Shown here: piece after piece, positions 26,299 to 29,303 of the stretch
Layout: each line of letters begins with the position of its first letter
Numbering within the stretch: position 1 is the first letter of the stretch
Origin: Cloeon dipterum
Lineage: Eukaryota > Arthropoda > Insecta > Ephemeroptera > Baetidae
Length of the DNA stretch: 64,000 bases
Assembly: GCF_949628265.1 (NCBI RefSeq)
Contig: NC_088787.1
Span: 29,750,501 to 29,814,500 of the forward strand
Direction of reading: 5' to 3'
Position numbers and translations under genes: made by a program
Notes under the pieces: generated by a model
Database searches by the model: none
The model's input: only the letters and a program-made list of their open reading frames with translations
What the model was told of the DNA's origin: nothing

Positions 26299-29200
26299 CT
26301 AATAATTGTTCAGGTATGCTTCGTTAGGAAGTTTATTTTGATGATGCAGACTATAGAGAGCGGCTACCAGCGACTGAAAGCCCGCGTTGTAGTCAATGCC
26401 GACATCGTTTTGGCTCCAGTTGTCGCGAGAGTCCTCGTATCGTCCGTTTATGTCAGGGCCGCCTACCAGGGCGCCGACCAGCACCTGCGGATTCGGGCCA
26501 GGCGCGTTTTTGTTCTTCCAGCCGCACTCTTGAGGGATATTCGGACACGAGCTGTAATAAAAAATTCAATCCAGGAGCTCCCTATATACGTGCTGAACCT
26601 ATACCTCGCCGAGTGTTGGATTTTCCTAGGGTAGTTGTTGCCAAAGCCCACCATAAAACTTCGGCCACTGTCACCAAGGATAAAGTTGACTTGTTGAATT
26701 GCGAATTGGATGTATGGGTTTGTGGGAATATCGCGGATGGTAATCAAAACTTCTCCAAGCTAAAAACGTTAAAATAAAATCAAAATTGAGCCGTTGATTT
26801 TAAATTGTTAAATTGGTACCTCATAGCAAGCGTACGCGATGTTGGCCGCGTACCTGATTGCTCCGACGGCCTGGTTGATGTGGTACAAACCCTGAGGATT
26901 CCTGAGAGACGAGTTTCTTGCTACATTGTCACACACAGCCTCTGCTTCCCTCGCGTACTGCTCGTCTAAAGTGAACAAGGCTAAAAGAATCTGTCGACCG
27001 CAAAGACATTAAAGATTACAAGATTTATTGCTAAAACCGTATCGCACTCATACTCTAGCTCCTAGTGTTTTGTCGTCCCAAGAAAACTCTGAGACTTGTT
27101 TCGTGGACAAGCGGAAATTGTGGTACATCCTCGTGGCATTGTCCAGATACGTCCTGTCACCGGTAGCTCTGTAAAGCCACAGTGAGGCCCACACCAGTTC
27201 ATCCTCGTCTCCAGACCAAGATCTGCATTTTACAAGAAACGCATTAAATAAATTTTTCCAAGCTGGAGAATATTACCTGTAAAACTCCGCGACTAATGGA
27301 ACGGCTTTGCTGTAGTCACCCCTGTAGTTAGTAGCAAAACTGTATAATTCCTTGGCGTGTCTCATGTGGCTATTTTTCCTCGCTGGATCTTCGCCCAACA
27401 GAATAGAACTGGCCGCTAAGGCGGCGGCAGCTTCAGCTGCCAGTTCAGATCCTAAAAATAATTAATTTTACGCCTCTACTTTATAACCACGTCTCGAATT
27501 AGTTTGTCATACCTGGATTGTTAGGGGTGACTGAGTAGGCTGGACGGTGGAAATTTATGTCCTCAGGTCGTCCCCACCATTCACGAATTTCCTTGTCAAC
27601 GTCACCCACGAGTGCATATATTTCTTCGGGCTTCGTGTGACATTTTTCTAGGTACAAAGTTCCCCAGTGCAATGCGTCCTTCGCAAGAGCTAGCTCATCA
27701 GCTGAAAATGATATTTTCATTACTCTCAGTAATAGTTGTTCCCTTGCAGTTTATTTGACTAATTTATAGTGCATGCAATCATATGATTCTTGGAATGATC
27801 GAAAGTTTTTTTCTTACCTCGCGCATATCCGTCTTCATTATTCAATATACCCCAAGCTAGCACAGTCATTGTAGCGGCCGTTGGGAACGTGAATTTCAGA
27901 GTTCTGCCATCTGGACAGACAAGACGAGATTGGCTGATTAATCGACAAAAGCGTTTGCGAGTCTCACTAACTCGTGTAATATCCGCCGATGAGGCTCTCA
28001 AATCCGTTTCCTCTGTCCCTAACGCAGGAATCGTTTCTCCACCTTATTCTGTTGTCTTCAGGCAGAAGTCCTGACCTTTGGGCTTCATAAAAGAGCAGTG
28101 AATTGTGAATTACGGTTTTGTAATCGTATTTCAACTGCTTTCGCTGCGGCGTTTGGATCCGCGGGTTCGTTGGTGTTACTTCAATTGTTTCTATAATAAA
28201 AGATAAAAAATTATTTAATTTATACATTCGTTCAAGAAAGCTTTATTCTCAACTAACAAATATTAGTTTCCTTAATTAATTACAACTAGATTTATTAGTT
28301 AACCTTAATAAAACCTTTAGAAAAATCAACTTAAAAACAAAATTATGGAAAATAAGCTGAAAGTAACCGAAATCGATCTGCAAACTATTTATTGCGAAAT
28401 ATGTTTTTCGTACGAGTAAAAATATAATGAATTAATGAAAACTGGTACCTTTGCATACAAGTTTGCCGTCAAAGTGGACACTCTCGATGGAAAGAGTGCT
28501 AGAGGGGCCAGTGTACCTGGTCTGGAAGTTCAAAACCAGTACTGAATTGGCTGCTAGGGGTCCTCCTCTGAGAACAAAAGATCGCATATCGGCAGAAGAG
28601 AATGTCGCATTTTTGACCTGTTTAAATACAAAATTATTATATATCTCGTAATTGTAGTACTCCTTGATTAATACCGAAAACTCAGCGACCGGTCTGGTGA
28701 ACTTGATTGTCGCTTGCCATCGGTTTTCGTTACGAATCGAAGGGACACTTAGTTTTGCACGAAATATATTGTTCTGGTGAGAGCTTGAGGATATCAATTG
28801 AGTGCATGGTTGAAGACTCTGCTGACCGTTTACAAACGTGGAAAGCAACAGGATCGGTATCTACAATAGTGGGATATTAATAATTTGAGTTTCTTAATTT
28901 TAATAAAATGGTAAAAATTCATACTACGCATATAGAGAAAAATCTCTTCAATTAATTTACACTTTAAAATTAAGCCTCTTGACAACTTGAATTCATAAAA
29001 ATTGTGATGTGTGTGTAAAAATTGTTAATTTATTTGTTTGTATAAAATAGCTGATAAAGATATTATGTGGTTTGTCCCCTCAGAATTTTTAAGAAATCGG
29101 TTATTGCACATTCATTTAAGTTCAACTTTATGAATTTTCCTCCAACAAACATGTTTTATTTCTGCATTCGTAGAATAATTTGAATTACTGGATAAACTGG

Positions 29201-29303
29201 AAATTAAGGGGGAAACATCCATGAATAATATAGAGCTAAGAGTTAAAATAACAAGACATTATATATTTTTTTATTTGTGCACACTCACCAGCAGTATCAG
29301 CAT
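26299..29303 (-). CDS. GH9 endoglucanase-family protein, predicted inactive
   Basis: Ten exons: 29289-29303, 28449-28860, 27972-28190, 27818-27910, 27513-27701, 27277-27451, 27054-27222, 26820-26990, 26605-26759 and 26299-26551; 616 residues. A signal peptide (MLILLIPILLLSTFVNG) is followed by a roughly 120-residue beta-rich module resembling an animal CBM2-like domain, then a full GH9 (alpha/alpha)6 domain: LLFYEAQRSG, NRIRWRNDS, GGYY, TVLAWGIL, SWSGDEDELVWASLWLYRATGD, ILGDSGRSFMVGFG, LVGALVGGPD and DYNAGFQS. GH9 enzymes hydrolyse beta-1,4-glucans. Here the DAGD motif after GGYY is replaced by TNGR, and the acid Glu before DYNAGFQ (NEVA in termite enzymes) is Asp (NDVG). The frame is intact and all splice sites are good, so this looks like an expressed pseudoenzyme, not a pseudogene. 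The TNGR call depends on the intron at 27911-27971. Confidence 0.93.

Follow-up and report, generated by a model that had tools for sequence, protein, structure and literature searches.

The 64,000-nucleotide stretch of Cloeon dipterum DNA analysed here (the window, to whose positions coordinates refer unless a contig is named) harbours on its minus strand, at 29303-26299, a gene encoding a protein of 597 amino acids, and the coordinates, strand and intact frame given for it in the original prediction were all recovered from the sequence, the 597 codons containing 0 internal stops and 0 frameshifts. The encoded protein consists of a signal-like stretch, an N-terminal domain of ~105 residues in which one Cys lies close to either end, a short linker and the entire GH9 domain. 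Its extreme N-terminus is the hydrophobic stretch MLILLIPILLLSTFVNGQ, judged by eye to be signal-like, and the protein is apparently secreted. Exon 1 (29289..29303) carries the start codon, specifies the first residues of this stretch (MLILL) and is followed by a GTGAGT donor; exon 2 (28675..28860) encodes the remainder of the stretch and the first half of the N-terminal domain, and exon 3 (28449..28617) the second half of that domain, with a phase-1 intron at its end. Exons 2 and 3 are separated by a 57-nt GT...AG segment (28618..28674) which is in frame and stop-free, such that its retention would yield a protein of 616 amino acids. This segment has a G+C content of 13/57 (23%) as compared to about 49% in the coding sequence, it lies in phase 0 close to the position of the mid-domain intron of GD_N domains in the same genome, and a weak Pfam GD_N match appears only when it is removed; we infer that it is spliced out as an intron. 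With this splicing the gene would comprise 11 exons, and all ten of its introns (10/10) are GT-AG; the earlier count of ten exons holds if the segment is retained, and not if it is spliced as proposed here.

The remaining exons encode the linker and the GH9 domain, which matches Pfam PF00759 with 389.4 bits (E 3.9e-116, cut-off 27.7) over profile positions 1-443 of 444 and is thereby placed in the family; GH9 is the only domain in the protein to score above a Pfam cut-off. The closest solved structure is that of the termite endoglucanase NtEgl (1KS8; E 1e-116), to which the protein is 46% identical and whose residue numbering is used throughout. In the catalytic enzymes of the family the base and acid are contributed by two Asp, those of the DAGD motif, and one Glu, as described for E4 in excerpts of PMC4221708, where the Glu is numbered differently. 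Alignment with NtEgl and E4 from T. fusca established that all three carboxylates are altered, D54 to T, D57 to R and E412 to D (these positions corresponding to E4 D55, D58 and E424), so that neither the base pair nor the acid Glu of a catalytic GH9 enzyme is present. Exon 4 (27972..28190) specifies the linker and the start of GH9 up to GGYYT, the Thr being encoded by ACG at the D54 position; a phase-1 intron (27911..27971) interrupts the former DAGD motif, and exon 5 (27818..27910) resumes with NGR, the Arg at the D57 position being encoded by AGA. Exon 6 (27513..27701) has Arg at the H124 position and is followed by exon 7 (27277..27451), by exon 8 (27054..27222) with SWSGDEDELVW and WDDK, by exon 9 (26820..26990) with Ala at the W301 position, and by exon 10 (26605..26759), which encodes GDSGRSF and, close to its end, Gln for H359 and Ser for R361. 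Exon 11 (26299..26551) completes GH9 with GALVGGPD and QNDVGIDYNAGFQS, has Asp (codon GAT) at the E412 position and ends in the stop codon. The motifs by which the fold had been recognized, GGYY, GDSGRSF, GALVGGPD and DYNAGFQS, are all present, as is the reported replacement of DAGD by TNGR and of the acid Glu by Asp.

The significance of these replacements was gauged against 45 reference GH9 sequences, consisting of 1KS8, 8IHW and 1JS4 together with 42 prokaryotic loci, which remained of 45 once the three whose open frames were short had been left out. D54 is conserved in 45/45, D57 in 44/45 and E412 in 44/45, and the three replacements are therefore not attributable to chance. Beyond the carboxylates, the contact positions H124, W301, H359 and R361 are changed (to R, A, Q and S, respectively), and Y206, W253, D254, R305 and Y417 are retained, the contact columns used being those which we take to be the sugar contacts of E4. 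As an Arg replaces a base Asp and neighbouring His and Arg positions are changed as well, ordinary inverting hydrolysis is very unlikely, and the protein is very likely devoid of hydrolytic activity, whereas the retention of some sugar contacts alongside the change of others makes binding of a glucan possible. The pseudoenzyme reading of the original prediction is very probably right, the gene specifying an intact GH9-fold protein that lacks the catalytic carboxylates; the glucan-binding or sensing role which it put forward is a possible one. Apparent catalytic loss was also observed in a GH9-like protein from an archaeal bin, a Lokiarchaeota MAG, in which DAGD is replaced by DGSS and the acid Glu by K.

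Searching the genome with PF00759 gave, among the best-scoring candidates, ten exon matches which fall in two gene regions only. The second locus shares the contig of the window gene, at a distance of 3.6 Mb (C2:26154500-26164000), and encodes a GH9 protein of 488 amino acids (Pfam 1e-145) which reads GGYYDAGD and NEV and so retains the triad. Six of the seven GH9 introns are identical between the two genes in alignment column and phase, and the seventh is of equal phase and lies one codon off in the paralogue. The intron within DAGD is among the six exact matches, which implies that GGYYT|NGR spans the expected junction. The D57R (AGA) and E412D (GAT) changes are independent of splicing, as they are exon-internal and their frame is fixed by KFTFPTAATM and DYNAGFQS. 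The original prediction had named alternative splicing that restores DAGD as one result which would overturn it; a search of the window in six frames for D[AGS]GD returned a single string, at 1597, far from the gene, and none near it. The intact triad of the paralogue together with the shared introns makes mis-splicing very unlikely.

The N-terminal domain is present in the window protein and absent from the paralogue. The original prediction of an added binding-type domain was upheld with regard to the extra domain, and its binding type was not, as no Pfam carbohydrate-binding match was obtained for this domain and a CBM2 profile scored only 3.2 bits. The CBM2 identity, which had been suggested by eye, was not supported by the profile, this score being matched by 55 of the 1912 scored shuffles and the reversed copy reaching 1.7 bits; the profile contained 13 rows, remaining from 28 (25/28 matches plus three chains) after 15 had dropped out for a stop symbol in their extended translation. 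Of four CBM2 chains aligned locally one by one, 3NDY stood out with p 0.004, the others giving 0.175 (1EXG), 0.556 (2RTT) and 0.629 (6F7E), and no CBM_2 match was listed by Pfam for the N-terminal domain or obtained in the genome. The sole Pfam match of the domain is to GD_N (PF16030), nearly full length, at 14.0 bits (E 0.062) and so below the gathering cut-off of 29.6, and the unspliced form gave an evident chance match, to BRCA2 OB2, with a similar E-value of 0.042. Two direct attempts to establish GD_N identity failed, hhalign returning a probability of 0.5% (not significant) and a local profile of four rows scoring 0.0 bits, which 380 of 1799 shuffles reached, both with one gd sequence that carried two surplus residues at the intron. 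Alignment to the three gd domains individually gave p values of 0.011, 0.212 and 0.215 (local) and of 0.003, 0.188 and 0.022 (global).

By eye, the three gd-type genes read from this genome have a phase-0 mid-domain intron and a phase-1 terminal intron, as does the window gene; in global alignment the mid-domain intron is offset by 0 residues from that of two of the three gd genes and by 11 from that of the third, local alignments to the gd domains stopped short of the intron, and in a MAFFT alignment all three lie within one column (by eye). It is because of this intron match that a GD_N relationship is kept, and kept only as a lead; in our judgement kinship of the domain with the GD_N of gd-type proteases is fairly probable, on evidence that is weak and mixed. 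The contiguous, unspliced N-terminal stretch was modelled as a beta-sandwich (mean pLDDT 69, pTM 0.67), for which only generic fold matches were obtained.

Downstream of the GH9 gene, at a distance of ~1.35 kb, lies an S1 (trypsin-family) protease gene at ~24946-23049 on the minus strand. Its protein, joined by eye, matches Pfam Trypsin with E 8.9e-42 and has a Gln/Asn- and Thr-rich N-terminal stretch, and 169 exon-wise matches to it were obtained in the genome. Seven related serine proteases, the best non-self match included, have by eye a degenerate protease-like half before the active half; they are located at ~0.5, 5.0, 24.6, 34.7 and 35.8 Mb of C2, the contig that carries the window, and at ~30.8 and 31.1 Mb of C4. 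The adjacent gene was considered as donor of the N-terminal domain and rejected, as the N-terminal halves of these seven relatives are protease-like, with no GD_N (by eye). Elsewhere in the window a tandem repeat occupies 31717-32578 (unit ~175 bp, 4.9 copies, 84% matches), an open frame on the plus strand at 40953-41291 has a CD36-family match (Pfam E 1.5e-32), and an open frame on the minus strand at 12019-12420, for which Pfam gave nothing up to E 0.01, presumably resembles the N-terminus of G-protein alpha-q. Five contig-end stretches of 1500 bases were inspected and carry complex, AT-rich repeats, similar to one another by eye, with no TTAGG array. The genome also contains 7tm_6 odorant receptors, in keeping with an insect, and an exon-wise search, by which many genes would be missed, gave one odorant-binding-protein match, as against 191 such genes reported for C. 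dipterum.

The reading which we favour, at a probability of roughly 0.5, is that this apparently secreted GH9 pseudoenzyme most likely serves as an extracellular, non-catalytic recognition or binding protein. An insect GH9 gene would have been duplicated, with the copy 3.6 Mb away retaining DAGD and the acid Glu and the window copy losing its catalytic base pair and acid, evolving several times faster and carrying an N-terminal domain predicted to be a beta-sandwich. The GH9 barrel would then act as a scaffold, perhaps holding a glycan or a partner protein, the N-terminal domain might tether or couple it, and the evolutionary route would be that of the insect beta-glucan-recognition proteins. 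We rank a recognition or binding role first since loss of catalysis, combined with the addition of an N-terminal region, parallels the path from GH16 to beta-glucan-recognition proteins; the ligand, partner and role proposed for the protein are only inferred.

The main rival to a recognition role is that of a digestive helper like the inactive GH28 proteins of Phaedon, that is, a gut pseudoenzyme which would serve the active GH9 paralogue as a decoy, partner or regulator, with no part in recognition or signalling. We regard this as possible though unlikely. In its favour, silencing of inactive Phaedon GH28s led to less food conversion and slower development, according to PMC6549527, and the triad of the proposed active partner is intact. 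The paralogue's own contacts are, however, changed as well (W253Y, D254N, W301F, R305C and R361A), and a helper role leaves the extra N-terminal domain unexplained. Changes in the paralogue lean towards the listed contact columns (6/13, versus 27/138 of the other conserved columns, p 0.038). With its contacts changed in this way, the paralogue may be something other than an ordinary cellulase and may have a shifted substrate too. Judged by these columns, both GH9 loci found in the genome depart from the standard cleft, and what is peculiar to the window gene is the loss of the carboxylates, not the change at contact positions.

An improbable alternative, and one which ranks behind the digestive helper, is that the gene is under relaxed constraint and heading for loss, its protein being functionless and its catalytic changes the product of drift. 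The tree groups the window protein with the paralogue (support 100/95) and assigns them branch lengths of 1.9 and 0.54, respectively, the former 3.5 times the latter, with the window row flagged by the program as a long branch of unsure placement. Such a long branch is what drift would produce, as is the alteration of 55 of 151 conserved columns as compared to 33 in the paralogue (26/101 versus 11/101 with a 95% conservation cut-off), and these changes show no significant concentration in the active site, affecting 7/13 contact columns and 48/138 of the remaining conserved ones (p 0.14, one-sided Fisher test). Given this lack of concentration, and a paralogue nearly as altered at the contacts, part of the divergence may reflect relaxed constraint or a shared change of substrate, and relaxed constraint is possible for part of the history of the gene. 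Against impending loss stand 597 codons free of stops and frameshifts, splice sites that are all canonical, and the outcome of a simulation with uniform substitution and indels excluded, in which 2.8% of 500 copies were still stop-free after 5% random substitution of the coding sequence and none after 10%. Furthermore, the G+C content at fourfold-degenerate sites (0.481, 129/268) is well above that of the gene's own introns (0.277), and ACG and AGA at the former Asp positions differ in all three bases from both Asp codons. Codon changes, open frame and fourfold-site composition together speak for coding constraint having persisted since the catalytic change, and the reading frame has in all likelihood been retained for long, which accords with the recognition or binding protein that we favour.

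Whether such a protein could be defined more narrowly was also considered. A recognition protein for beta-1,4-glucan with GH9 as its base, in which a dead cellulase joined to a GD_N-type domain would signal to an extracellular serine-protease cascade, appears doubtful, a little more so than simple decay of the gene. If it were true, a GH9 protein would report cellulose-bearing microbes, algae or matrix, as the GH16-based GNBPs do for beta-1,3-glucan. Less probable again is an active enzyme of altered chemistry, with the Asp as acid, some other residue as base, and turnover that is slow or directed at a different substrate: position 412 is still a carboxylate and the five contacts from Y206 to Y417 listed above are kept, but both base Asp are lost, one of them to a positively charged Arg, and H124, H359 and R361 are changed as well. 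That a splicing or assembly artefact hides a real protein with DAGD is exceedingly improbable, as no support for it was found, apart from the intron at 27911-27971 having the highest G+C content among the ten introns (0.459), and as it is opposed by the absence of D[AGS]GD from the gene region in any frame, by the match of the DAGD intron to the paralogue's in column and phase, and by the exon-internal position of D57R and E412D.

The window protein was compared with several known systems. With the GH9 enzymes (NtEgl 1KS8, 3WC3/8IHW and bacterial Cel9A/E4 1JS4) it has whole-domain homology and structural motifs in common, and it differs from them in the replacement of three carboxylates and four of the listed contacts and in its extra N-terminal domain. 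None of the excerpts of the open-access literature on inactive or pseudoenzyme GH9 proteins described a GH9 in which all three carboxylates are lost. GD_N, as found in gd-type serine proteases, resembles the N-terminal domain in length, in having Cys near both ends and, by eye, in its mid-domain phase-0 and terminal phase-1 introns, yet the sequence score is far under the cut-off and the domain is attached to GH9 here and to a protease in the gd-type genes. The insect beta-glucan-recognition proteins (GNBPs) arose from GH16 beta-1,3-glucanases by loss of catalytic residues and addition of an N-terminal region, as set out in part of PMC6403176, and are alike in being catalysis-lost relatives of a glucanase, with an added N-terminal region and with relatives in the same insect that remain intact. 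They differ in belonging to GH16 rather than GH9 and in that a glucan-recognition and immune role has been described for them; as the window protein contains no GH16 domain, the likeness is one of working principle only. The leaf-beetle GH28 and GH45 pseudoenzymes likewise stem from duplicated plant-cell-wall-degrading genes which lost catalytic residues and were retained; silencing of the inactive Phaedon GH28s hurt growth more than silencing of active enzymes, and for GH45s with lost catalytic residues activity was undetected (excerpts of PMC6549527 and PMC6509783, respectively). These proteins are of other families, with one catalytic residue changed and with an added domain unmentioned in those excerpts. 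In the same sources, catalysis-lost relatives of carbohydrate enzymes in insects belong to GH16 (as immune sensors), GH28 and GH45 (PMC6403176, PMC6549527, PMC6509783). If kept across relatives, the GH9 protein described here would represent one more case, independent of the others, in which an old animal cellulase became a non-enzyme, for which the sister copy, still intact in this genome, provides a natural control.
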